Assembly (NCBI GenBank): GCA_021791795.1
Contig: JAJYVX010000008.1
Span: forward strand, 1 to 41,202
DNA length: 41,202 bases
Direction: 5' to 3'
From: Actinomycetes bacterium
GTDB lineage: Bacteria; Actinomycetota; Acidimicrobiia; Acidimicrobiales; Bog-793
In this document: positions 6,756 through 30,765 of the stretch, piece after piece
Layout: each line of letters begins with the position of its first letter
Numbering within the stretch: the stretch's first letter is position 1
Notes under the pieces: generated by a model
Database searches by the model: none
Told to the model about the DNA's origin: nothing
Seen by the model: the letters and a program-made list of their open reading frames with translations, nothing else
Translations under genes and position numbers: made by a program

Positions 6756-7413
6756 TCGGCTTGGGGAGCCACGGCGGGCTGATCATGAGCAATCCGGCGT
6801 AAACGATCACGAGTCCGCAGATGATCGCTATCACCACTCCTGCCCCGATGCCGGCCGAGTAGCCGGTCCCGGATCCCGAAGGGGCGACCGCGATGAAGAG
6901 GAGGTCGCCCAGGATCTCGGCGCCGCCGGCCGCTACGAGGAGCCAGAGCGTGCGCCGGTCGTCGACGAGCGTGGCGAGCGAGGTGCCCACGACCCGCTGC
7001 CTTGCGACGAGGCCGACTGTCAACGCGGCGATGACGAGCCACGAGATGAAGCTGAGCCAGCCCCAGCTGTGGAAGCCGTCGAGCGAGAACGTCCCGAGGA
7101 AGACCGCCGTGACCGACCACCAGGGAAGGAGCAGCGCAATGAGCAAGAGCACCGAAGCGCCGACGAGCAGCCACTGGGGCACCGTGAGTCGTAACGCCCG
7201 GGATGGTGCGCCTGCACTTCCCACCCCGCGACTGCCGGCGTCTCGTGCCGCTCCGGTCACTGCTCCGGGCAGTGGCTCACCGCCCCCTGGCATGGTCGGT
7301 GCCGCCGACTCGGTGCCTCCTATCGGCGCGCTGTCGGATACCGGCTGCCCGCAGCGAGGGCAGAAGACGTCCTCGGACGCGAGGCTTGCTCCACATCCCG
7401 TGCACCCAGCCAC
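6742..7413 (-). CDS. Zinc-ribbon membrane protein, function unknown
   Basis: A 223-residue protein beginning at GTG 7413 with a GGGGG tract about 6 nt upstream. The N-terminus is a four-cysteine zinc ribbon (C4, C7, C18, C21; CTGC ... CPRC) of the type found in many bacterial membrane regulators. A Gly/Pro-rich linker to about residue 70 follows, then about four hydrophobic helices (near 78-98, 108-130, 150-170 and 185-210) and a short basic tail. No catalytic motif is visible. Its neighbours are an aminotransferase (convergent) and a secreted coiled-coil protein (same strand, upstream), and neither suggests a role. Confidence 0.75.
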   Translation of the reverse strand: MAGCTGCGASLASEDVFCPRCGQPVSDSAPIGGTESAAPTMPGGGEPLPGAVTGAARDAGSRGVGSAGAPSRALRLTVPQWLLVGASVLLLIALLLPWWSVTAVFLGTFSLDGFHSWGWLSFISWLVIAALTVGLVARQRVVGTSLATLVDDRRTLWLLVAAGGAEILGDLLFIAVAPSGSGTGYSAGIGAGVVIAIICGLVIVYAGLLMISPPWLPKPKALK

Positions 7414-7546
7414 GACAACCCCCTATCTGCCCGTCCCCTCCGGGTCATACCGGTGCCATGGTACGCGTCACGGCATCGAGCGTAAAGGTTCTGCCGTCCG
7501 CCTCCGAGCTCTGAAGAGGGCGGCGGCGCGCTTCGGCCGGACCCTC

Positions 7547-8839
7547 CTACCAGCTGGGCCAGCCGCTCGGCAGCGAGCCTGTCGGAGGGTTGTTCTGCAT
7601 GACGCCGGGCGGCGCGCCGACCGAGGCGAGGAGCTGCGAGAAATTGGCGCCGAATGCGGTCGAATTGCCCCCTGAGAACTGGCCGTCGGCCATCGCCATG
7701 GTCTCACCCGTACCGCCGTCGGCCCAGCCGGTCTCCATCCCGTCCGGACCCGCGTAGAGAGTGCCGAGCACCGTGCCGCGCGAGACCGCCTGACCTATCT
7801 GGACGGAGGGGACGATGTCCTCGGCGTCGTAGACCACCAGTCCCGCACCCGGGCCGGATGTGAGGCGGTAGGTGATGAAAGTGCCTCCCGGCCAGCCCCC
7901 GTTGGAGATGCTGAGCACGACACCGCTCCCGATCGCCATGACCGGGCCGGACCCCGAGAAGTCCACCCCCTGGTCCACCCGTTCGGGGCTGAGGGCGGAG
8001 ACGCTCGCGAGAGGGTTCCCGTAGCCGCTCCCGCCTCCGGGAGGAGGGGGGGGTGGAGGCGGAGGAGGAGGGGGCGGCGGGTTGTTGGTGGGCGGTGGAG
8101 GCGGCGGAGGGGGCGGAGGTGGCTGCTTCTTCGCCAGAGCCTGCTCGCGGGCCTTCTGAGCGGCCGCGGCCTGGGCCGCCGCGAGAGCGAGCAGTTGGCG
8201 CAGGTTGCCCTTCGCAGAAGCGAGGAGCGCCTGGTCTGCCTGCAGTGCCTTGTCGGCTGCGGACTTCTCACGCCCGATCAGCTTCAGGTTCGCCACGGAG
8301 GCTGCCTTCTCGCTCTTGAGGGCCGCTTCCGACGTGGTGAGTTGGTGCTGCACGAGCTCGTAGGCCGTGACCGCGCCCGAGATGTTGCTCGCGGCCGCCG
8401 TCTCGTACACCGACATCTGGCCGAACGACGATGGATTGGCCGACAGGAGCGCCTCGGCCGCGCTCTGGCCGCCGTCGGTCACGTACGACGCCACGGCTGC
8501 CGCCTGCAGCTCTGCATAGGCCTTCGCCAGCCGCTCCATCTCGACAGAAAGGGCGCGGGTCGTCGCCGCCAGGCGGTCCTCGAGCACCAGCTCGTGGGTC
8601 TGTGCCTTGTCGTACGCGATCACCAGGCGCTGGATCGCGTCGCCGTCGGCGATGATCTTCTGCTCGAGCGAGCTGATGTTGCTCCTCGCAGACGTGATGC
8701 TCGGCCCGGACGCACTGGCCGTGCCGCCGCCGTTCAGGAGCGCCGTCGTGAGCATGCCGGACGTGACGAGCGCCGCGAGGAGCGCGCGGCGGACCTTTTT
8801 GCTCGCGCGCGAGAACGCACCCGACGTACGAGTCCCCAC
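7547..8839 (-). CDS. Secreted coiled-coil protein with poly-proline linker and degenerate LytM/M23-like domain
   Basis: A 430-residue exported protein. GTG 8839 places a basic stretch (SKKVRR) before a hydrophobic signal segment ending near TASA, about residues 15-41. A long coiled coil (about 45-235) resembles EnvC/RipC-type N-terminal helices. Residues about 238-267 are two runs of 11 and 14 prolines split by TNN. The C-terminal domain has the outline of an M23 (LytM) fold (VDQGVDFSGSGPVMAIGSG), but the first zinc-ligand histidine is replaced by Gln and no HxH motif is present. It therefore probably binds rather than cuts peptidoglycan, or activates another hydrolase. The start is uncertain because no strong ribosome-binding site is seen. 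It is divergent from the esterase at 8955. Confidence 0.75.
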   Translation of the reverse strand: MGTRTSGAFSRASKKVRRALLAALVTSGMLTTALLNGGGTASASGPSITSARSNISSLEQKIIADGDAIQRLVIAYDKAQTHELVLEDRLAATTRALSVEMERLAKAYAELQAAAVASYVTDGGQSAAEALLSANPSSFGQMSVYETAAASNISGAVTAYELVQHQLTTSEAALKSEKAASVANLKLIGREKSAADKALQADQALLASAKGNLRQLLALAAAQAAAAQKAREQALAKKQPPPPPPPPPPPTNNPPPPPPPPPPPPPPGGGSGYGNPLASVSALSPERVDQGVDFSGSGPVMAIGSGVVLSISNGGWPGGTFITYRLTSGPGAGLVVYDAEDIVPSVQIGQAVSRGTVLGTLYAGPDGMETGWADGGTGETMAMADGQFSGGNSTAFGANFSQLLASVGAPPGVMQNNPPTGSLPSGWPSW

Positions 8840-8954
8840 GGGCCGCGAAAGATACCCGTCCCCGACGGCCCCGTCCAGGAATGAGACGAGCCCGTAACAG
8901 ACCGTAATGAACGCCGCAGCCTCGCGGTCGCCGAGATCCTGGCAGGATCGCCTC

Positions 8955-9854
8955 ATGGTCAGCGAGATCGCGGAGCAGGTGTTGCGTTTCATGAGGTCAC
9001 TGCCGGAAGAGGACGGAGACACGAAGCCGCTCGAAGAACAGCGTGCGCAGTCCGAGATCGTGTGGCCGCTCCTCACCGGAGACGTGCCGGGCTCGGCCTT
9101 CGAGGCCGCAGACGCCGGCGGGGTGCCGGCGGAGATGGTCCGGACACCTGAGAGCGATCCCAGTGCCATGCTGCTCTACCTGCACGGCGGCGGCTACTGG
9201 GCAGGTTCCGTCACGACGCATCGAAAGCTCGTGGCGCAGCTCTGCCGCCGGACCGGGAGGACGGGACTCGTCATCTCCTACCGTCTCGCTCCCGAGCACC
9301 CCTTCCCCGCCGCTCTCGACGACGCACTGGCCTCCTACGACTGGCTCGTGGCCAAGGGCTTCGATCCCGCTCGGATCACCGTTGCAGGGGACTCTGCAGG
9401 AGGCGGCCTTGCCCTCGCGCTGGCTCTCCGGCTACGGGAGGAGCATCGGAGCCTTCCGAAGGCGCTGGTCCTCTTCTCGCCTTGGACCGACCTCGCCATG
9501 AGCGGCGCTTCGATCGTGGCCAACCGTGCGATCGACCCCGTCATCAAGATCGGGGAGGGTGAGAGCCCCGCCGTTCGCGCCTACTTGGGTTCGAGCGGCA
9601 CCGATGTGAAGGACCCCCTCGTCTCCCCCCTCTACGGCGATCTCCGCGGCCTGCCACGCATGCTCGTGCAGGTCGGCTCCGACGAGGTCCTCCTCGACGA
9701 CTCGACCCGCCTCGTCGAAAGGGCGCGGAGCGCCGGCGTCGATGTGACCCTCGAGACGTGGCCCGGCATGTTCCACGTCTTTCAGATGGGGGCGGGGCTC
9801 TTGCCGGAGGCCGACGAGGCCATGGAGCACGTGGCCGGCTGGCTCGGCTCTTAG
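8955..9854 (+). CDS. Alpha/beta hydrolase, HSL-type esterase
   Basis: A 299-residue carboxylesterase of the hormone-sensitive-lipase (GDXG) family. The oxyanion-hole motif HGGGYW starts at H77. The nucleophile elbow is GDSAGG with S147, and the likely acid and base are D243 (GSDE) and H274 (MFHVFQ). LAPEHPFPAALDD and SPWTDL are also typical of the family. Such enzymes hydrolyse short- to medium-chain esters in the cytoplasm; the natural substrate cannot be told. ATG 8955 has an AGGA 8-9 nt upstream. It ends 30 nt before the convergent membrane-protein gene. Confidence 0.88.
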   Translation: MVSEIAEQVLRFMRSLPEEDGDTKPLEEQRAQSEIVWPLLTGDVPGSAFEAADAGGVPAEMVRTPESDPSAMLLYLHGGGYWAGSVTTHRKLVAQLCRRTGRTGLVISYRLAPEHPFPAALDDALASYDWLVAKGFDPARITVAGDSAGGGLALALALRLREEHRSLPKALVLFSPWTDLAMSGASIVANRAIDPVIKIGEGESPAVRAYLGSSGTDVKDPLVSPLYGDLRGLPRMLVQVGSDEVLLDDSTRLVERARSAGVDVTLETWPGMFHVFQMGAGLLPEADEAMEHVAGWLGS

Positions 9855-9897
9855 ACCCGAGGCGGCCGCAGGAGCGCCATCTGTTCAGTGAAGAGCC
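9846..9897. terminator. Possible bidirectional terminator between convergent genes
   Basis: GGCTCTT (9846-9852) pairs with AAGAGCC (9891-9897) around a 38-nt loop. The loop contains the self-complementary GCGGCCGC (9862-9869). The stop codons of both convergent genes lie in or just inside the dyad. The long loop makes this weak. Confidence 0.3.
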
Positions 9898-10703
9898 CGC
9901 GCGAGGGTGAGACCTGCGGCTAGCGCCACGACCCCGAGGGAGAGCAGGCGGAGAGCGCTTTCGAGGGGTGCGACGAGTGAGCTGGCAGAGATCTCCTCGC
10001 GGCGGCCGTCCCGGTACTCGATGGCTCCGGTCACCCCCGGCGCCTGCCGCCTGAGGCGGCGGGCCGGCGTCGACAGCGTCCGCTGGGCGGCTGACAGCAG
10101 GCCAGCTCCGGCCGCTACCACCACGGCGGACCAGCTGAGGGAGCGTGCCTGCGCGAATGCGGAGACGAGGACGGGGAAGGCGCCCCAGGCCAGGGCGAAC
10201 ACGAGGTCGCTGTGGAGCCTCCCATTCGCCAACTCGAGGTTGTAGGCCAGCACGAGAACGACACCCACGGCTACGAAACCTGCCAACCCGGCACCCACGC
10301 GCTCCACCCCCAAGAGACCGATCGCAGCGGCGCCCGAAAGCGAGATCGCCGCGGCTGCGGCGAGCCATGAGGAAGGGACGGCCGTGGAGAGCGGCCGGCC
10401 GTGCAACTCGTCGAGAGCGTGCGCCCCTATCCCGACCGCCAGGAAGAAGGCGAGGACCGTGGCACCGAGGGTCGACCAGCTCACGCTCCGGGCGAGCAGG
10501 CCGCCGATGACGACGTAGGAGAGGTGCCAAGCCGTGTAGGGAGGGTGGAGGAGCGCACGCAAGTCTCGCCAGAGCGACGGTCGTCCACTCGCGTAGTAAG
10601 CCGGTCCGAGGAGCGGTCTCCGTCGTGCCTCCGCCGCTCCGACGGCGTCCCGCGGGTCCCGCACGAGAGGTTCTGTCTCGAGGTGCTCAGGCTGTGCGGT
10701 CAT
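9885..10703 (-). CDS. Polytopic membrane protein, UbiA-like
   Basis: A 272-residue protein with about seven or eight hydrophobic helices after an ~55-residue N-terminal cytoplasmic part. The loop motifs AHALDELHGRPL and AYNLEL occupy the places where UbiA prenyltransferases carry their Asp-rich motifs, but the classic NDxxDxxxD is not intact. I call it UbiA-like, not a UbiA enzyme. Its start overlaps the end of the UbiE-type methyltransferase gene by 17 nt, which argues for a joint pathway, perhaps a prenylated quinone or other isoprenoid lipid. ATG 10703. It could equally be an unrelated conserved membrane family. Confidence 0.6.
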   Translation of the reverse strand: MTAQPEHLETEPLVRDPRDAVGAAEARRRPLLGPAYYASGRPSLWRDLRALLHPPYTAWHLSYVVIGGLLARSVSWSTLGATVLAFFLAVGIGAHALDELHGRPLSTAVPSSWLAAAAAISLSGAAAIGLLGVERVGAGLAGFVAVGVVLVLAYNLELANGRLHSDLVFALAWGAFPVLVSAFAQARSLSWSAVVVAAGAGLLSAAQRTLSTPARRLRRQAPGVTGAIEYRDGRREEISASSLVAPLESALRLLSLGVVALAAGLTLARALH

Positions 10704-21553: not shown

Positions 21554-21614
21554 CTCAGCAGGGACGGGGGACGTCCGAGGCCCCGGCACGCGGGGAGAGG
21601 AAGGAAGACGCTCA

Positions 21615-22529
21615 ATGGGTGTCATGAAGCGCCTGACAGGCATCGTCCAGGCCAAGGCGAACAAGGTCATGGACCGGGTGGAGGATCCACGCGACACGCT
21701 CGACCTGTCCTACGAGAAGCAGCTCGAGCAGCTCCAGCAGGTCCGCAAGGGCGTCGCCGACGTGGCCACAGCCCGCAAGCGCATCGAGCTCCAGGCCCAG
21801 CAGCTGCAGCAGTCCGCCCAGAAGCTGCAGGACCAGGCACGCCAGGCGATCTCCCAGAACCGGGAAGACCTCGCCCGGGAGGCGCTCGGCCGCAGGGCCG
21901 CCCTCGCCACCCAGCTCGAGGGCCTCAAGGCTCAGCACGACCAGCTGGTCTCCCAGCAGGACCGCCTCACCGCGACCCTCCAGACGCTCGAGTCGAGGGT
22001 GCAGGCGTTCCGCACCCAGAAGGAGACCCTCAAGGCCTCTTACACGGCCGCCCAGGCGCAGACGAACATAGGAGAGGCGATCTCCGGCATCTCCGAGTCG
22101 ATGAGCGACACCGGCCTTGCCATGCAGCGTGCACAGGACAAGATCTCCCAGATGCAGGCGCGCGCCGGCGCCATCGACGAGCTCATGGCCTCCGGCGCCC
22201 TCACCGATCTCTCCGGCAGCACCGACCCCCTCCAGGCCGAGCTCGACAAGACGACCCAGACAAACCAGGTCGAGCTTGAGCTCGCCCAGCTGAAGGGCCA
22301 GCTCGGTGCCGGCGCTCCCAGTGAGTCCCTCCCGGCCGGCGCCGCTGCCGGGGAGGCGGACAAAGGGCCCGACGGCGAGGCGGCCCAGGCCGAGCTGGTC
22401 GAGGAGACCCCCGGGACCGAGACGGCGGCGCAGCAGGCGCAGCCGGCCGCGCCGGACCGGGCCGCCAGCGGGGACGGCGAGGGCTCGGACGACCTCTTCA
22501 GCCTCGACGGCGAATCGACACAGCAATGA
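21615..22529 (+). CDS. pspA: PspA/IM30 (Vipp1) family membrane-stress protein
   Basis: A 304-residue ESCRT-III-like protein that coats stressed inner membranes. The N-terminal helix MGVMKRLTGIVQAKANKVMD is followed by EDPRDTLDLSYEKQLEQLQQ and a long coiled coil to about residue 190. A shorter helix region with AELDKTTQTNQVELELAQLK comes next. The last ~70 residues are an acidic Ala/Glu/Pro-rich disordered tail ending DDLFSLDGESTQQ, as in actinobacterial members. It is the first gene of a four-gene operon and overlaps pspAA by 4 nt (ATGA). Confidence 0.93.
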   Translation: MGVMKRLTGIVQAKANKVMDRVEDPRDTLDLSYEKQLEQLQQVRKGVADVATARKRIELQAQQLQQSAQKLQDQARQAISQNREDLAREALGRRAALATQLEGLKAQHDQLVSQQDRLTATLQTLESRVQAFRTQKETLKASYTAAQAQTNIGEAISGISESMSDTGLAMQRAQDKISQMQARAGAIDELMASGALTDLSGSTDPLQAELDKTTQTNQVELELAQLKGQLGAGAPSESLPAGAAAGEADKGPDGEAAQAELVEETPGTETAAQQAQPAAPDRAASGDGEGSDDLFSLDGESTQQ

Positions 22530-22804
22530 TCGTGCGCATCCTCGGCGAGGGGCAGTACGAGCTCGACGGCGCCATGACGAACGATCTCGACCACCTCGAC
22601 GCCCAGTTGAACGCGGCGCTCGAGGGTGGCGACCAGGCCGGTTTCGACCGGGTTCTCACAGAGCTCGTCGAGAAGATCCGCTCGGGCGGCAAAGAGCTCG
22701 AGCCTGACCGCATAGTGCCGTCGGACCTCACGGTGCCGGCCGTCGGCTCCACCATCGAGGAAGTCCGGCAGCTCCTCACATCAGAAGACCTCGGGGAGGC
22801 CTGA
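22526..22804 (+). CDS. pspAA: PspA-associated protein PspAA
   Basis: A 92-residue single-domain protein beginning MIVRILGEGQYELDG, with a hydrophilic helix (NDLDHLDAQLNAALEGGDQAGF) and a C-terminal VGSTIEEVRQLL. This matches the PspAA domain described as a PspA operon partner in actinobacteria and archaea. Its molecular role is not settled. The ATG lies in the last codons of pspA (ATGA). The htpX start follows its stop after 5 nt. Confidence 0.88.
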   Translation: MIVRILGEGQYELDGAMTNDLDHLDAQLNAALEGGDQAGFDRVLTELVEKIRSGGKELEPDRIVPSDLTVPAVGSTIEEVRQLLTSEDLGEA

Positions 22805-22809
22805 GCATC

Positions 22810-23769
22810 TTGTCCACCCGTACCCGCTATCCCGCAGACCGAGGGCTGACTGCCCGCATGATGACGACCGTCTTCCTCCTCGGCCTGCTCTACGCCATCT
22901 TCGTCACGGCGCTCTTCCTGGCCCACGTGCCGCTCCCGCTCATCATCGTCATCCCGCTCGTCGTGCTCGCGTGCCAGTACTACTTCTCGGACAAGATCGC
23001 CCTCTGGTCGATGCACGCGAAGCTCGTCACCGCCGAGGAGGCGCCGCAGCTGCACGGCGTCGTCGATCGCCTCTGCAACCTGGCGAACATGCCGAAGCCA
23101 AAGGTGGCGGTCGCGAACACCGACATCCCGAACGCCTTCGCCACCGGGCGCAACCAGAAGAGCGCCGTCGTGTGCGTCACGACCGGCATCCTGCGCCGGC
23201 TGGACGAGCCCGAGCTCGAGGCGGTCCTCTCCCACGAGCTCTCCCACGTCGCCCACCGCGACGTCGCCGTCATGACCGTGGCGAGCTTCCTCGGGATAAT
23301 CGCCGGCTTCCTCACGAGGATGCTCTACTGGAGCGACCTCTTCGGAGGACTCGGCGGCGGCATGGGCGGGCGTGGCCGAGGTGGCAACAACAACGCCGGC
23401 GGCGGCGGGCAGCTCGTCCTGTTCGAGCTCGGCGCGCTCGCCTTCTCGGCGCTCATCTACATGATCAGCTTCCTCCTCATCCGCGCGCTCAGCCGCTACC
23501 GGGAGCTCGCAGCCGACCGTGCGGGCGCGATCCTCATCGGCCAGCCCCGCCTGCTCGCGAACGCCCTCGTCAAGGTGAGCGGCGAGATGAGCAGGATCCC
23601 CACGAGGGACCTGCGGGCCGCCGAGCACTTCAACGCCTTCTTCTTCGCTCCCGCCTTCGCCAAGGGCGCTTCGCTCTCGTCCCTCTTCTCGACGCACCCC
23701 TCGCTCGAGAAGAGGCTCGAGCAGCTTGCCAAGCTCGAGGCGCAGATGGGACGGGGCGTCAGCGCCTGA
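22810..23769 (+). CDS. htpX: HtpX membrane zinc metalloprotease
   Basis: A 319-residue M48 protease that degrades damaged membrane proteins. Two N-terminal membrane segments (about 18-38 and 40-57) precede the zinc site SHELSH (H142, E143, H146), with the third ligand in YRELAADR. A Gly/Asn-rich loop (about 180-200) separates it from two further membrane helices. The TTG start at 22810 gives the short polar N-terminus seen in actinobacterial HtpX and has GGGGAGG upstream. ATG 22858 is the alternative. STHPSLEKRLEQL near the end is typical of the family. It lies inside the psp operon. Confidence 0.93.
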   Translation: MSTRTRYPADRGLTARMMTTVFLLGLLYAIFVTALFLAHVPLPLIIVIPLVVLACQYYFSDKIALWSMHAKLVTAEEAPQLHGVVDRLCNLANMPKPKVAVANTDIPNAFATGRNQKSAVVCVTTGILRRLDEPELEAVLSHELSHVAHRDVAVMTVASFLGIIAGFLTRMLYWSDLFGGLGGGMGGRGRGGNNNAGGGGQLVLFELGALAFSALIYMISFLLIRALSRYRELAADRAGAILIGQPRLLANALVKVSGEMSRIPTRDLRAAEHFNAFFFAPAFAKGASLSSLFSTHPSLEKRLEQLAKLEAQMGRGVSA

Positions 23770-23788
23770 GCGCCCGAGGCTTTCCACG

Positions 23789-24394
23789 GTGCGCTTCTTC
23801 GACGTCCTTCTAGGAAGGACCAAACCGGCAGACGCCAACCTCGATGCTCTATTCGGGCTGCCCGGCGCCATCATCACGCTCGAAGCCGCCGAAGCGATGG
23901 AGCCGACCGGAGAGGCCGGCGTCTGCTACAAGCCCTCGGCCGGCCAGCCCTTCGTGAAGACGACCGAGGAGTTCGAGCAGCTCCTCGTTCTCTCGCCCGG
24001 GGCGAAGGTCTCCGAGAGCTCCGACCGGTACGGGTACAACTGGGTCGTCATCGCCGATCCGGACTTCCAGGCGCTCGTGAACGAGGTGCACGTCGTCAAC
24101 TCCACGCTCGAGGAACAGGGCTACGGCCCGCAGTTGCTCTGCTCGGTGTTCGGCTTCCGGACGACCAGCCCGGGAGGTGCCGGCGCGGCTCGGCCAGCGT
24201 CGGGTGGCGCCGCCACGACCTACCTCGTCTACCTCTACAAGCGAGGCGCCTTCTACCCCTTCGTACCCCTCCCGGGCAAGGAGCGCAGGGACCTCGAGAG
24301 CGAGATGCGGTTGCAGAACGTGCTCGGCTCCGAGCTCAAGGTCGAAAAGGACAAGGAGCGCTGGATGCCTCTCTGGGGCGTGCCCGTCCACTGA
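23789..24394 (+). CDS. pspAB: PspA-associated protein PspAB
   Basis: A 201-residue soluble protein beginning at GTG 23789 (VRFFDVLLGRTKPADANLD). It includes the conserved-looking segments CYKPSAGQPFVKTTEEFEQL, DRYGYNWVVIADPDFQALV and LYKRGAFYPFVPL, and ends RDLESEMRLQNVLGSEL ... RWMPLWGVPVH. This is the PspAB family found next to htpX in actinobacterial psp operons. No enzyme motif is visible. A GAGG lies 8-10 nt upstream and the gap to htpX is 19 nt. It is convergent with the conserved unknown gene ending at 24410. Confidence 0.88.
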   Translation: MRFFDVLLGRTKPADANLDALFGLPGAIITLEAAEAMEPTGEAGVCYKPSAGQPFVKTTEEFEQLLVLSPGAKVSESSDRYGYNWVVIADPDFQALVNEVHVVNSTLEEQGYGPQLLCSVFGFRTTSPGGAGAARPASGGAATTYLVYLYKRGAFYPFVPLPGKERRDLESEMRLQNVLGSELKVEKDKERWMPLWGVPVH

Positions 24395-24413
24395 GCAAGG
24401 GTGCAGGGCTCAG
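24391..24413. terminator. Short dyad with both stop codons at the psp operon end
   Basis: CTGAGC (24391-24396) pairs with GCTCAG (24408-24413) across 11 nt. The TGA of pspAB and the TCA of the convergent gene sit in the two arms. A weak bidirectional terminator candidate. Confidence 0.4.
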
Positions 24414-25498
24414 CGCCGGCGGCGGTAGCTCGCCCTCTCGCTCTCGGGGATGTACCCCCCGTCCACCCTGAACGGGTCCCAGGCAGGCGGTGAGCTGGCC
24501 AGGTAGCCGACGACCACTTCGTTCACCTTCTCCGGCGCTATCTCGGTGCGCCCCTCCCCGGACGGTTGCAGCCGCCCGACGATCGCCCCGACCGGGTTCG
24601 CCTCCCAGAAGACGTCCCCGGGCTCGAGCGAGCTGAGCTCCGCCGCGAGCGGCGCGAGGTCGGGCCTGAGGGGTACCTCGCGGCTCAGATAGCGAACCCA
24701 TCCCTCGTAGCGGAAGTAGCACTCGCAGAAGTCGCCGTCGAACGCGAGCACGCGGCTGGCCGTCGTCGCCGAGTGGACGGCCACCGGATGGATGGGAAGC
24801 CCGCCCGCCGCACCGGGCAGGCGACCGTTCAGCTCGGCGAGGCGCGGCCGGGACGGCCTGCTCACCACTGCCAGGTCGACGGCCCCGTCGGTCTCGAGCA
24901 TGACCGTCTCCTCGGCGATCGCATCCTTGCCCAGCTCGTAGGCGGCGAACTCGTCGGCCCAGTAACGGCGGTACCTGGCCGGATGTCCCAACAGCTCGGC
25001 GACCCGCCCGAGCATCGCGAGGTAGCGCTCTCCCGTCCCCGCCCCGGGCCCGGCCACTTCCTCGGCGAGCGGGCCGACGGCGAAGCTCACCTGCGCCGCC
25101 TCGTCGCTCGACACCACCCCGAAGTCGCCACACGACGCCACGTCCACCACGAGATCGGCGACCCGAAGAGCGCTGTCGGGCACCATGGCCGACCAGACGG
25201 ACATGAGCCCGTCTTCGTCGAAATGGTCGTTCGTCACCGCCTCGGCCATCTCGGCCGCCTCGACCGCGCGGGCAACCTCGGGCTTGGCGTCGGCCGGCAC
25301 GTCGAGCCGGCCTCTCGCGGCGGCGAGGAAGGCGAGCACGGATTGCGCCGACAGGTCGCGCCAGAACGCCTTCGGCGTCGGCGAGGCCGGCCAGTGCGAC
25401 AGCGTGAGCACGGACGAGCGTCGCTGTGCCCCGTCGACCATCACGTGAGGACGCTCGCCGAGGCGCTCGTAGGGTACGTAGCCGAGCCCAGTCTCCAT
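24410..25498 (-). CDS. Conserved-looking protein of unknown function
   Basis: A 362-residue soluble protein. ATG 25498 is chosen because GGGAGG lies about 6 nt upstream; an in-frame start at 25525 is possible. It begins METGLGYVPYERLG, then PHVMVDGAQR, LTLSHWPASPTP, DLSAQSVLAF and VTNDHFDEDGLMSVWS. The histidine/aspartate-rich blocks look like conserved functional motifs. Later segments are DLVVDVASCGDFGV, ERYLAMLGRVAELL, LPIHPVAVHSATTASRVL and FRYEGWVRYLSREVPLRPDL. I do not recognise a named enzyme family with confidence; metal-dependent chemistry is suggested only by the HFDED motif. It is convergent with the psp operon and divergent from the riboflavin synthase gene. Confidence 0.72.
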   Translation of the reverse strand: METGLGYVPYERLGERPHVMVDGAQRRSSVLTLSHWPASPTPKAFWRDLSAQSVLAFLAAARGRLDVPADAKPEVARAVEAAEMAEAVTNDHFDEDGLMSVWSAMVPDSALRVADLVVDVASCGDFGVVSSDEAAQVSFAVGPLAEEVAGPGAGTGERYLAMLGRVAELLGHPARYRRYWADEFAAYELGKDAIAEETVMLETDGAVDLAVVSRPSRPRLAELNGRLPGAAGGLPIHPVAVHSATTASRVLAFDGDFCECYFRYEGWVRYLSREVPLRPDLAPLAAELSSLEPGDVFWEANPVGAIVGRLQPSGEGRTEIAPEKVNEVVVGYLASSPPAWDPFRVDGGYIPESERASYRRRR

Positions 25499-25569
25499 GC
25501 GTCGCCTCCCCGAGGATCCAGTCATGCTAGGCGGCCTGCCGCCGCGGGGATTCCTGGCAGGATTGCCGC

Positions 25570-26046
25570 ATGGACCGGATCGGGATCGTGGACACGATGT
25601 TCGCTCGTGTGGACATGGGCAGTGCCGCTCTTGAGGAGCTCGAGGCCTGTCCCGGCCACGGGGAGCGCTTCGAGGTCCTGCGACGTACCGTGCCCGGCTT
25701 CAAGGACTTGGCGGTCGAGTGCAAGAGGCTCATAGAGCGAGAAGGCTGCAGGGTCGTCGTCGCCCTCGGCATGCCCGGGCGCGCCGCCATAGACCAGGTC
25801 TGCGCCCACGAGGCCTCGCAGGGCATCATGATGGCCCAGCTCCTCACGTCGACCCACATCCTCGAGGTCTTCGTGCACGAGAACGAGGAGGACGATCCTT
25901 CCCGGCTCCTGGCGGTCTGCCAGGACCGCGCCCGCAAGCACGCCCGCAACGCCTACTGGATGCTCTACGAGCCGGAACAGCTGATTCGGCGGGCGGGCCA
26001 GGGCGTGCGCCAGGGCTACGCCGACGCAGGGCCGCTCCCCGCCTGA
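25570..26046 (+). CDS. ribC: Riboflavin synthase, archaeal type
   Basis: A 158-residue protein that makes riboflavin from two 6,7-dimethyl-8-ribityllumazines. It matches, almost motif for motif, the archaeal riboflavin synthase of Methanothermobacter/Methanocaldococcus, which is a lumazine-synthase paralog unrelated to bacterial RibE. Diagnostic stretches are RIGIVDTMFARVDMGSAA, RRTVPGFKDLAVECKRL, VVALGMPGRAAIDQVCAHEA, THILEVFVHENE and the C-terminal RAGQGVRQGYADAGPLP. Length is as in archaea. ATG 25570 has AGGA about 8 nt upstream. No other rib gene or FMN riboswitch is visible here. Identification from memory of the family is strong; donor and date of transfer are unknown. Confidence 0.9.
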   Translation: MDRIGIVDTMFARVDMGSAALEELEACPGHGERFEVLRRTVPGFKDLAVECKRLIEREGCRVVVALGMPGRAAIDQVCAHEASQGIMMAQLLTSTHILEVFVHENEEDDPSRLLAVCQDRARKHARNAYWMLYEPEQLIRRAGQGVRQGYADAGPLPA

Positions 26047-26100: not shown

Positions 26101-26167
26101 AGTCCCACTACTCCGCGTGTGATTTCGGCTAAGCTTGCCCCATCATCCACGAGGGAGGTTCTTGCCC

Positions 26168-27472
26168 ATGCCAAGGCCTCAACTACCACCCGGCACCTGC
26201 CGATACAGGCACAAGAGCTCTATGAGGCGAAGCACGCACCAGGGCGGGTCGAGATCCGCCAGAAGACTTCTCGGCCGTGCACTCGCGCGGACGCCGCTCG
26301 CCGTCGAGGGAAGCGGGTGGGAGGAGGACGCCGGATTCGGCCTCGTGGAGGTGATCGTCGCTCTCGTCGTCCTCGCCGTCGCGGTCACCTTCCTCTCCGG
26401 TGGACTCACGTCCTCGCTCCTGTCGACGGCCCAGTCGCAGTACCGGACGACGGCAGCCGAGGTGGCCTCGCAGACGATCCAGGAGGCGGAGAACCTCGGT
26501 TACGCCACCGTCTCCGAAGGCATCGCCTGCCCGGTGCCGACCGGCTCCCAGTACTGCAGCGCTCTCGCCGAACCGGACCCCAACCACATGATCACGTTCG
26601 ACAGCACGAACAACTGCTTCTACTACGGGGCGCCGACCAGCGGGCTCCTCGTCCCGACGCTGGACGGGAGCTCCTCGGGCGGCTCGGCCGCCGCGCCTGT
26701 CATCCCGTACGCGACAGGACCGAACACGAACTACTCGACGCCTGCCGTGAACGGCATGAATTTCACGGTCGCCACGTATCCCGTCGTCAACCTGAACCAG
26801 TACTCGAACGACTCCTGTGCCAAACAGTTGAGCGGCACGAGCCCGAGCGTCCCCGTCAGTGTCATCGTCGAGGTCTCGTGGGGAGCCGGGAGCACACAAC
26901 GGCTCTCGATGCAGACGGTGCTCTACGCACCGCCCGACCCCATCGTCCAACCGGCTTCCCCGGCCCAGTGCCCGACACAGACGTTCCAGCAGTCGGGCGC
27001 GCATCTGGAGTCGCTCCTCGCGAGCCCCGGATCGTCGGCCACGATCGCGCCGGGCGGCACGGCCTGGATCTTCTTCCTCGACGAGGCGCCCACTCCCTAC
27101 ATCCCGACCTTCTGCGTCACCGACTCGGAGGGCATAACCGAGCAGCTCTCGATCACCCCCACCTACTACTTCTACGGCACCGGCGGGAGCAATCCCTATC
27201 TCGAGACGAGCTGCATAGTGGCCGTACACCCAAGCTACGGAGCTTCAGGACCGAACGCCGACGATCCGAACGCCGGCACCGGTGCCTGCTACTCGGGCGG
27301 CACTCCTCTGAACGCCACCACGACGGCGCCGAGCGGGAGCGCCAACGTGGAGGAGCTCATCTCGTTCCAAGTCCCGAGCGTCGCGCCGAGCGGTCTCACC
27401 TTCGCGTCCCTCACGATCACGGCCTGGGGCCACGAGGGCGACATGGACATGTACACATGGAACATCAGCTAG
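26168..27472 (+). CDS. Prepilin-type protein, PilV-like minor pilin
   Basis: A 434-residue exported protein with a type IV prepilin signal. After a long basic leader (about 1-53) comes EEDAG followed by FGLVEVIVALVVLAVAV, giving cleavage after Gly, Phe at +1 and Glu at +5. The following helix would build the pilus core. The rest is Ser/Thr/Asn-rich with scattered cysteines (for example CPVPTGSQYC) suited to an extracellular disulfide-bonded domain. ATG 26168 is 9 nt after GGGAGG. The leader is longer than usual, so a later in-frame start (for example 26222) is possible. First of three pilin-like genes; overlaps the next by 16 nt. Confidence 0.82.
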   Translation: MPRPQLPPGTCRYRHKSSMRRSTHQGGSRSARRLLGRALARTPLAVEGSGWEEDAGFGLVEVIVALVVLAVAVTFLSGGLTSSLLSTAQSQYRTTAAEVASQTIQEAENLGYATVSEGIACPVPTGSQYCSALAEPDPNHMITFDSTNNCFYYGAPTSGLLVPTLDGSSSGGSAAAPVIPYATGPNTNYSTPAVNGMNFTVATYPVVNLNQYSNDSCAKQLSGTSPSVPVSVIVEVSWGAGSTQRLSMQTVLYAPPDPIVQPASPAQCPTQTFQQSGAHLESLLASPGSSATIAPGGTAWIFFLDEAPTPYIPTFCVTDSEGITEQLSITPTYYFYGTGGSNPYLETSCIVAVHPSYGASGPNADDPNAGTGACYSGGTPLNATTTAPSGSANVEELISFQVPSVAPSGLTFASLTITAWGHEGDMDMYTWNIS

Positions 27473-28104
27473 CCGTCCCCGGCGAGAGGGACTCGGGCTT
27501 CACGCTGCTCGAGATGGTCATCTCGATGATGATCGTCGCCGTTGCCCTGGCACTTCTCGCCCCCGTCTACATCGTGGTGAGCACGAGCTCGGCAAGGTCA
27601 CAGGAGATCTCGGCCGCGAACGGGGCGATCAGGCCGGCCCTGATACTGCTGAACAACCAGGTCGCCTCGACTGGAACCCTCTACTCCCCCTGCGCGAGCG
27701 GGACGAACGCCGGAAGCATTCCTGCATGCAGCAGTGGCGGCGGCAACGCGCCGAGCGGCTGGGCCGTCCTTCTCTATTTCGAGGCGACGTCCGGCACCGC
27801 GGCCGAGTGCAGCCAGTGGCGCGTCTACAACGGCCTCCTGCAAGACCGCACCTGGAACCCGGCGAGCCCGCCGTCCTCGTTGTCCTTCACGACACTGGCG
27901 CCGACCGTCACGATCACGAACACGTCCGGCAACCAGCCGTTCGCCCTCGGTTCGTCGACCGGGAGCGGGACGGATCTGCTCGTGGTGGATTTCTACGTCA
28001 GCACCGGCGCCAAGGGGGCGCCGAGCATCGAGACGAAGACGGCGGTCGCAGCCCAGGGACAACCGTCGGGGACGTGCTCGCCGCCGCCGACGAGCGGAGA
28101 TTGA
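27457..28104 (+). CDS. Prepilin-type protein, PilW-like minor pilin
   Basis: A 215-residue prepilin with a short leader (MEHQLAVPGERDSG) and the classic motif G/FTLLEMVISMMIVAVALAL: Phe +1, Glu +5. The globular part is Ser/Thr/Gly-rich with cysteine pairs (CASGTNAGSIPAC, and one CSP near the end). A WRVYNGLLQDRTWNP stretch resembles the beta-sheet region of PilW/pseudopilin J proteins. The ATG lies 16 nt inside the upstream gene and the stop is one base before the next ATG, so the three genes are one operon. Assembly genes (PilB, PilC, PilD) are not in the window. Confidence 0.85.
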   Translation: MEHQLAVPGERDSGFTLLEMVISMMIVAVALALLAPVYIVVSTSSARSQEISAANGAIRPALILLNNQVASTGTLYSPCASGTNAGSIPACSSGGGNAPSGWAVLLYFEATSGTAAECSQWRVYNGLLQDRTWNPASPPSSLSFTTLAPTVTITNTSGNQPFALGSSTGSGTDLLVVDFYVSTGAKGAPSIETKTAVAAQGQPSGTCSPPPTSGD

Positions 28105-28105
28105 G

Positions 28106-29842
28106 ATGAGATCCGGACACCACCGCATCACGTCGTTTCGGTCGCCTACCTCGCGCCGGCTGCGATCTCGGGTCGGTCGGGTGGTGCGGCTCGACCGCGG
28201 TGAGCGTGAGAGCGGCCAGGCGCTCGTGGCCGTCGTCGTCATGACGGCGCTGCTCCTCATCCTCGGCACGATCGCGTTCTGGTCGGCGCAGACGAACTCG
28301 TCCACGTCGAGCGGCGTCAACGCCGACTCGCAGGCCGACGCCAGCGCCAACGCCGGCATCGCCGCGGCCGTCTACTCGATCGAGAACAGCACGTTCGCCT
28401 GCTCCCTTTCGAGCACGAACTCGAACGGCCCGAACCTTCTCACTCCCTCGGCCGGCGGTCCACCCAACGCAGGTGTGGCTTCCTACAGCGTGACGGTGGA
28501 CTACTACACGACTTATCCCCCGGCTGGCAGCCCGATGACCTGCAGCGACGGGAATGCCAGCTCGGCACCCGGCGCGGCCGTCGTCACGTCGCAGGGCGCG
28601 GAGCAACTCGGCCCGATCACGTCCAAGCAGACGATCTCAGAGACGCTCGACCTCACCCTCGTGCCCAGCGACTTCGTCGTGTACGTCGGCGGCGGCGGTG
28701 TCAATTTCACGAACCTCCAGGTGAAGCAGCCGGCGCCTCCACCGGGCACTACGGCAACCTTCGGCCAGGTGTACGCGGCAGGCGACGTGACCGGACCGAC
28801 AGGCGGCGGGTGCACCATCCAGGCGAGCATCGTCGCCCAGGGTTCGCTCAACCTCGGCGACAAGTGCGTCGTGAGCGGGTCCGTGAGCCTCGGCCACGAC
28901 GGGTCCGGCAACGGCTGGGCCGTGCTCAACCAGGCGACCATCGACGGGAGTCTGTCCACCTCGGCAGGCAACATCACCATGTCCAACTCGACGGTCGGAC
29001 AAGACGTGACAGCTGGAGGCAACGTCGTCCTGTGCCCGAACCCGCTCGGGCCCACGCCGCCCTCGCCCTGCAGCGGCCTCCTCGCCGGCAACAGCACCGT
29101 CGACGGCTCCGTGGTCGCTACCGGCACGGTCACGCTCGGCAACCAGGCTGAGTCGACGAGCCCGAGCGCTCCCAACTGCACGACGGCCACCACCTCCAAC
29201 GGTGCCACCGTAGACGGCTGCATCACGGTCGGCTGGAACCAGTCGGTGTCCGGTCCGAGCAAGGTGCCGATGCCGACCTTCACCGCCCCCACCTCGAGCA
29301 ACACCTGGTCGAGCGCCGGCTACACCGCCTACTACCCCAATGCCAGCTGCTCGGGGACAAGCGCCGGATCGGTCGCCTACGACGCGAACAACGAGACCGC
29401 GCCGACCGTCATCGTCGCCAACTGCGCGCTCACGATCTCCTCGACGCTCAACATGTTGTACAACACGGCGATCATCGCGACCGGCGGCATCACGATCGGC
29501 AACGGCTCCGGCTTCAAGTTGCCCGCCCCCCCGCCCGGCAGCACCACTCTCCCCCAGCTTTCGCTCATCGTGCCCACTCCGTCGACTTCCTACACCTGCA
29601 GCTCCGGCGACTACAACATCACCGACTCGAACGGTCCGGCGATCCCCAACAACATCTCGACCTTCATCTTCACCCCGTGCCAGTTCTCCACCACGGCGCC
29701 GGTCAACATGCTGGGCGAGGTCATGACGGACACCCTCGCCTCCACGGCGCCCTTGACGATCGGGTTCTCGTACTTTGCTCCGCCGGGCCTGAGCTTCGGC
29801 TTCCAGGTCGTGCCCGAGCAGCGTGTGGTGACGAAGGGCTGA
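28106..29842 (+). CDS. PilX-like pilus protein with beta-solenoid-like domain
   Basis: A 578-residue exported protein. A basic leader ends in ERESG, then QALVAVVVMTALLLILGTIAF. There is no Glu at +5, as is common in PilX-type proteins. From about residue 215 the chain repeats short G-x-V/T units (YAAGDVTGP, IVAQGSLNLGDKCVVSGSVSLG, TVDGSVVATGTVTLG). That pattern resembles the right-handed beta-helix regions of PilX-like or polymer-forming proteins. Asn/Ser/Thr content is high, with several cysteines. ATG 28106 is one base after the upstream stop. A hairpin follows at 29841. Likely the tip or adhesive subunit of the minor-pilin set; this role is inferred. Confidence 0.75.
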   Translation: MRSGHHRITSFRSPTSRRLRSRVGRVVRLDRGERESGQALVAVVVMTALLLILGTIAFWSAQTNSSTSSGVNADSQADASANAGIAAAVYSIENSTFACSLSSTNSNGPNLLTPSAGGPPNAGVASYSVTVDYYTTYPPAGSPMTCSDGNASSAPGAAVVTSQGAEQLGPITSKQTISETLDLTLVPSDFVVYVGGGGVNFTNLQVKQPAPPPGTTATFGQVYAAGDVTGPTGGGCTIQASIVAQGSLNLGDKCVVSGSVSLGHDGSGNGWAVLNQATIDGSLSTSAGNITMSNSTVGQDVTAGGNVVLCPNPLGPTPPSPCSGLLAGNSTVDGSVVATGTVTLGNQAESTSPSAPNCTTATTSNGATVDGCITVGWNQSVSGPSKVPMPTFTAPTSSNTWSSAGYTAYYPNASCSGTSAGSVAYDANNETAPTVIVANCALTISSTLNMLYNTAIIATGGITIGNGSGFKLPAPPPGSTTLPQLSLIVPTPSTSYTCSSGDYNITDSNGPAIPNNISTFIFTPCQFSTTAPVNMLGEVMTDTLASTAPLTIGFSYFAPPGLSFGFQVVPEQRVVTKG

Positions 29843-29946: not shown

Positions 29947-30765
29947 ATGCGCATCGCCACCTGGAACGTCAACTCGTTGAAGGCTCGCCTGCCGAAGGTG
30001 GAGGAGTGGCTCTCGTACGCGGAGCCTGACGTGCTCTGCATGCAGGAGACGAAGCTCGCCGATGGCGCCTTCCCGGCGATGGCGTTCGCCGCGCTCGGCT
30101 ACGAGGCGGCCCACCACGGCAACGGCCGCTGGAACGGCGTGGCCATCCTGTCGAGGGTCGGGCTCAAGGACGTCCGCTCCGGGTTCATAGGCGAGGAGCC
30201 GTCGGGCCTCGAAGAGTGCCGCCTCATCACGGCCGTGTGCAACGGGGTCCGCGTCGCGAGCGTCTACGTGCCGAACGGGCGGTCGGTCGGCTCCGAGCAC
30301 TACGAGGCCAAGCTCGAGTGGCTCGAGCGGCTGAGGGCGGACATAGCCTCGAGCTGCCGGCCGGACGAGCCGCTCGCCGTCTGCGGCGACTTCAACGTCG
30401 CGCCGGAGGACCGCGACGTCTACGACGCCGCCAGGTTCGACGGGGCCACCCATGTGAGCGAACCGGAACGGTCGGCCGTGAGGGCCCTCGAGGCCTGGGG
30501 GCTCGAGGACGCCTTCCGGCTCGTCTACCCGGGCGAGGAGAAGCTCTTCAGCTGGTGGGACTACCGTGCGGGCGACTTCCACAACCATCGGGGGATGCGG
30601 ATCGACCTCCTTCTCCTCTCGCGCCCGCTCGCACGGGCCGTGACGTGGGCGCTGGTGGACCGGGAGGCCCGCAAGGGACTGGGGAGCGACAAGCCGCCGT
30701 CCGACCATGCGCCCGTCGTCGTCGACGTCGACGACGATGCGGCCGGCATCGCTGCCCGCCCCTGA
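29947..30765 (+). CDS. xthA: Exodeoxyribonuclease III / AP endonuclease
   Basis: A 272-residue Mg-dependent enzyme of base-excision repair that cuts at abasic sites and removes 3' blocking groups. Family blocks are complete: MRIATWNVNSLKARL with the catalytic Asn, CMQETKLAD with the metal-binding Glu, NGVAILSR, VASVYVPNGR, GDFNVAPEDRDVYD, FSWWDYRAGDFHNHRGMRID and the terminal SDHAPVVVD with the catalytic Asp-His. ATG 29947. It ends 3 nt before the convergent FabZ-like gene, and both stops lie in the tiny dyad CTGAGCCTCAG (30762-30772). Confidence 0.95.
   Translation: MRIATWNVNSLKARLPKVEEWLSYAEPDVLCMQETKLADGAFPAMAFAALGYEAAHHGNGRWNGVAILSRVGLKDVRSGFIGEEPSGLEECRLITAVCNGVRVASVYVPNGRSVGSEHYEAKLEWLERLRADIASSCRPDEPLAVCGDFNVAPEDRDVYDAARFDGATHVSEPERSAVRALEAWGLEDAFRLVYPGEEKLFSWWDYRAGDFHNHRGMRIDLLLLSRPLARAVTWALVDREARKGLGSDKPPSDHAPVVVDVDDDAAGIAARP

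Follow-up and report, generated by a model that had tools for sequence, protein, structure and literature searches.

A clade of the actinobacterial order Acidimicrobiales has swapped one riboflavin synthase for a structurally unrelated one. Few reactions show as clearly as that of riboflavin synthase how two enzymes without common descent can do the same job, with largely one enzyme per domain of life. We came upon the swap in a window of 41,202 nucleotides, meaning the whole stretch of DNA analysed, which is an entire contig (C8) of a 3.45-Mb MAG (351 contigs, 91.9% complete, 2.3% contaminated). With a probability of about 0.93, a gene in this window, ribC, encodes the cell's riboflavin synthase, an archaeal-type enzyme that replaced the bacterial trimeric RibE after being acquired outside the rib operon, ribE then being lost.

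The ribC open reading frame (25570–26046, + strand) has an ATG start and 158 codons, with boundaries exactly as first annotated, and its third-position G+C of 0.89 is coding-like and on par with that of neighbouring genes. The initial annotation had recognized an archaeal riboflavin synthase from motif order, length and C-terminus, an identification that holds. The 158-amino-acid protein scored 193.3 bits (E = 2.1e-57) against the NCBIfam equivalog TIGR01506 (ribC_arch; cut-off 100.55), the match spanning the full length of the model (positions 2–151 of 151). Its best match among solved structures was 2b98/2b99, the riboflavin synthase of M. jannaschii (E = 5.9e-54), running from residue 3 to residue 156 with the C-terminus included; the two proteins are 56% identical in an alignment. 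An AlphaFold monomer model (mean pLDDT 91.2, pTM 0.86) retrieved 2b99_A first in Foldseek, with a TM score of 0.93 normalized by target (0.92–0.94 across 2b99/2b98). More than 50 alignment columns, CAHEA included, are invariant among the M. jannaschii, Streptomyces RibE2 and Acidimicrobiales proteins. The window protein is a plain member of a known enzyme family, the archaeal-type riboflavin synthases. Family membership and mutual exclusion with ribE suggest that it acts as a riboflavin synthase, and it would be expected to form pentamers. Trimeric bacterial and pentameric archaeal riboflavin synthases have been reviewed (PMC10366380).

Pfam places the protein in PF00885 (DMRL_synthase) alone, at 52.5 bits, and the two lumazine-binding domains of bacterial RibE are absent from it. 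A place in the lumazine-synthase superfamily is expected for an archaeal riboflavin synthase. The Pfam name, and a fold that puts several lumazine synthases next in the Foldseek ranking (TM ~0.7–0.78), would also suit a divergent or second lumazine synthase, a reading that we regard as very improbable. Against the lumazine-synthase equivalog TIGR00114 the protein reached 24.5 bits, under the cut-off of 84.6, as against 193 bits for ribC_arch; moreover, the rib operon of the host already holds an ordinary ribH, and across genomes ribC takes the place of ribE, not of ribH. Among both family models and structures, the best matches were archaeal-type riboflavin synthases and none was a lumazine synthase.

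The initial annotation had left it to the rest of the genome to show whether a classical ribE is present and where lumazine synthase lies. Bacterial ribE (TIGR00187) gave no match at E ≤ 0.1 anywhere in the host genome, in a search that was positive in 11 of 14 control genomes. The one ordinary lumazine synthase gene, ribH (151 bits), sits apart from the window in a rib operon on contig C90, in the order ribD (7628–8761), ribBA (8743–10071) and ribH. Because ribD and ribBA overlap, this operon has no space for ribE, and the overlap falls at the exact position that ribE occupies in sister families. Most ribE-bearing genomes of those families have ribE between ribD and ribBA (nine genomes, G233 among them), and two carry it outside the operon (G199 and G071). 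The slot is empty in every ribC genome with a readable ribD–ribBA junction except G852; in G059 the stretch is cut at a contig end and is not readable. The cultured Aciditerrimonas ferrireducens MV1 (operon at L151) likewise has ribD–ribBA–ribH, with the slot empty and no ribE. An FMN riboswitch, or any other Rfam RNA, was found neither in the window (at gathering score) nor in the rib-operon region or the Aciditerrimonas locus. Separately, a genome of family f5 (G102, 97% complete) has ribD–ribBA–ribH without ribE and no ribC was found in it, through either an assembly gap or a true loss.

A search of 84,980 species genomes returned 184 relatives of the window protein. The best 80, which were examined, show 70–87% identity and come from Acidimicrobiales or 'Actinomycetes' MAGs and from cultured A. 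ferrireducens MV1 (L019). A MAG labelled Acidobacteriota REEB240 (L024), whose RibC lies inside the Acidimicrobiales clade in the tree, is probably mislabelled. Across a sample of the class (247 genomes), ribC was over the cut-off in 17 genomes, ribE in 194 and both in none (Fisher p = 4e-13), and across a sample of the order (397 genomes) ribE was absent from 54 of 56 genomes with ribC versus 91 of 341 without it (p = 1e-24), both p-values treating related genomes as independent. Consistent with these samples, 48 of the 50 named genomes behind the ribC loci are without ribE, MV1 among them. This near-perfect exclusion, together with the empty operon slot, therefore indicates a clade-wide displacement, so that the non-homologous replacement of RibE first suggested for a single chromosome extends to a whole clade.

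Two observations made during these surveys concern other lineages. Haloferax volcanii, a control genome, was positive for bacterial ribE and negative for ribC_arch, which is the reverse displacement and is at odds with a description of haloarchaeal riboflavin synthases as M. jannaschii-like (PMC3403918). In addition, four genomes of family f2 in the same order (G002, G157, G019 and G051), two of which are single-contig assemblies, 99% complete, of 4.8 and 5.0 Mb, show no ribE, ribC or ribBA; they may be riboflavin auxotrophs or rely on a different route.

The surroundings of ribC had been described as actinobacterial, and they prove to be conserved Acidimicrobiales genes found around ribC in relatives. 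A 44-bp gap (25526–25569, from the open reading frame coordinates and sequence), presumed to contain the ribC start signals, separates the gene from a divergent DUF6687 gene (24410–25525, − strand; PF20392, E = 1e-63), which also adjoins ribC in five other loci. Further upstream, a Pfam-defined cluster of PspA, a small open reading frame, an HtpX-like M48 peptidase and PspAB (21612–24394, + strand), kept in 8 related loci, shows the contig to be Acidimicrobiales in origin. On the other side, an Exo_endo_phos (XthA-like) gene (29947–30765, + strand; PF03372, E = 1.3e-32) is separated from ribC by a pilin-like block; in relatives such as L005 and L006 it directly follows ribC, on the opposite strand. 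That block (26135–29842), made up of open reading frames with a prepilin-type N-methylation motif, is missing there in both of these close relatives. The PspA, M48 peptidase, PspAB, DUF6687, Exo_endo_phos and FabA-like genes recur near ribC in close relatives, seven loci being examples. In the loci viewed, whose neighbours were clustered and in part annotated, no gene conserved beside ribC was seen to be a flavin gene.

The conserved neighbours on the same contig refute contamination, in which archaeal DNA, be it a gene or a contig, would have been wrongly assembled into the bin of an actinobacterium; the fragmentation of the source MAG into 351 contigs would speak for such an error. A protein 70–87% identical at 80 loci (the best 80 of 184) in other genomes, including that of a cultured strain, also argues against contamination, as does the match in G+C between ribC (68.3%) and the window (69.3%); we consider this explanation extremely improbable, more so even than a lumazine synthase. 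The closeness in G+C instead indicates that ribC is long settled in its host.

A few genomes break the pattern. Both genes occur in two genomes of the order sample, G920 and G852. To judge by its identical contig numbers and positions, the first is G605 of another survey under a second label. Among the 50 named genomes the exceptions are G605, with ribE on a 9.4-kb contig, and G623, with ribE on a 6.4-kb contig; the two contigs share 99.3% identity and carry another complete ribD–ribE–ribBA–ribH set. Because the G605/G920 contig so closely matches one in the bin of another species, it points to mis-binning, and both contigs most simply represent the same foreign organism in two bins. G852 has ribE within its operon and a divergent ribC (120 bits, CAGDA replacing CAHEA) that forms a two-gene unit with a PRK12419-type second lumazine synthase (L189:5995–6962). 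G842 has ribD–ribBA–ribH with an empty ribE slot and no ribC; its ribE lies outside the operon on another contig (L193, ~7094–7657) and is nearest to the ribE of other families (62%) versus 46–52% to that of f1, as expected for a gene that was regained.

In a tree of concatenated RibD, RibBA and RibH, all ribC genomes but G852 fell in one clade (SH-aLRT 100). Inside it lie a few ribE genomes without ribC: G233 of family f22, G842, and one subclade within f1, the family of the window. A single displacement was consistent with a first tree of ribD–ribBA–ribH (AU p = 0.418), a result that weakened with broader sampling: the best concatenated tree requires four ribC/ribE state changes, two of them forced by well-supported branches. 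Given these ribE genomes inside the ribC clade, either the tree has faults or the displacement was something other than one irreversible event. Most simply, ribC was gained once, early in the clade, and ribE lost, with reversals or incomplete sorting afterwards. Under such a history, a foreign ribC would have entered the genome of an ancestral member of these Acidimicrobiales, at a site outside the rib operon. The archaeal pentameric enzyme would convert two molecules of 6,7-dimethyl-8-ribityllumazine to riboflavin and 5-amino-6-ribitylamino-uracil. RibE would then have become dispensable and its gene been removed from ribD–ribE–ribBA–ribH to leave ribD–ribBA–ribH. We infer this order, gain of ribC before loss of ribE.

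As to where the gene came from, an archaeal source is presumed, the M. jannaschii sequence alone serving as the archaeal comparison; that sequence is 50–60% identical to the Acidimicrobiales RibC clade. Horizontal transfer has been named as the origin of the RibE2 of roseoflavin-producing Streptomyces, which is described as an additional riboflavin synthase (PMC11039241). The S. camelliae protein given as a RibE2 in that work (WP_270086807.1), encoded on a plasmid within the rosB cluster, shows 66% identity to the window protein and 58–68% to the clade. Because its identity to M. jannaschii is only 50%, RibE2 may stem from the Acidimicrobiales bacterial lineage. In a RibC tree rooted on M. jannaschii alone, the joining point of RibE2 is not settled, because both sequences are on long branches. 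A bacterial source common to Acidimicrobiales RibC and RibE2 is plausible, and unsampled archaea would explain the similarities equally well.

The same figures bear on whether the gene is archaeal in origin at all. Descent of both Acidimicrobiales RibC and RibE2 from an ancient branch of the family, bacterial or unsampled, would account for the identities of RibE2, for a three-residue insertion that the two share and M. jannaschii lacks, and for the internal diversity of the clade (67–87% identity to the window protein), and it is compatible with riboflavin-synthase function. Against it, ribC is confined to the Acidimicrobiales in a sample of 396 Actinomycetota genomes, and among the 14 control genomes ribC_arch was over the cut-off in three archaea only and in none of ten bacteria; we think such an origin unlikely, though worth keeping in view. 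Scans of viral contigs, phages and plasmids yielded no archaeal ribC. Returning to an archaeal enzyme, a wider scenario is that a large part of the Acidimicrobiales exchanged RibE for it, that reverse exchanges followed later (G842) and that the RibE2 of roseoflavin-producing Streptomyces was taken directly from this lineage and not from an archaeon. Taken as a whole, this scenario is tentative, with the balance somewhat against it.

The users of the archaeal-type enzyme include both uncultured and cultured Acidimicrobiales bacteria. A clade with the archaeal enzyme, an empty operon slot and ribE-bearing sister genera amounts to a natural experiment on swapping an essential enzyme. It also carries a practical warning, as a search for ribE only would wrongly mark its members as auxotrophic for riboflavin. 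For the 'archaeal' enzyme found in the roseoflavin cluster, the clade provides an alternative candidate source. The link to F420 metabolism in the initial annotation is a loose one: F420 and riboflavin synthesis do share an intermediate, but riboflavin synthase acts downstream of it. Encapsulation of the RibE type in a lumazine synthase cage (PMC13376624) is not expected in these hosts, because the C-terminal peptide of RibE is missing from an archaeal-type pentamer.

That an archaeal-type riboflavin synthase should serve as the sole copy in a bacterial clade, with the place left by ribE still visible in the operon, appears to be new. We found no earlier report of it in Acidimicrobiales, or as a non-orthologous replacement, in the open-access literature; the precedent there is Streptomyces RibE2 only. 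Compared with archaeal RibC of M. jannaschii (2b98/2b99), the window protein has the same DTxFAR, TVPGxKDL, CAHEA and C-terminal RQGxxDAGP motifs but carries three extra residues after the first helix, and its host is a bacterium whose pathway is otherwise bacterial (RibD, bifunctional RibBA and a ribH operon). Bacterial trimeric RibE (TIGR00187, Lum_binding) catalyses the same reaction and is unrelated in sequence; it is the enzyme of sister families in the same order, whereas the window's genome gave no match to it and has nothing in the ribE slot of the operon. RibE2 of S. davaonensis, S. berlinensis and S. camelliae (PMC11039241) is, like the window protein, an archaeal-type riboflavin synthase in an actinobacterium. 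In the described producers, however, a normal ribE1 operon is present and RibE2 is an extra copy within the roseoflavin (rosB) cluster, whereas ribC of the window is the only riboflavin synthase found in its genome and lies outside any flavin cluster.
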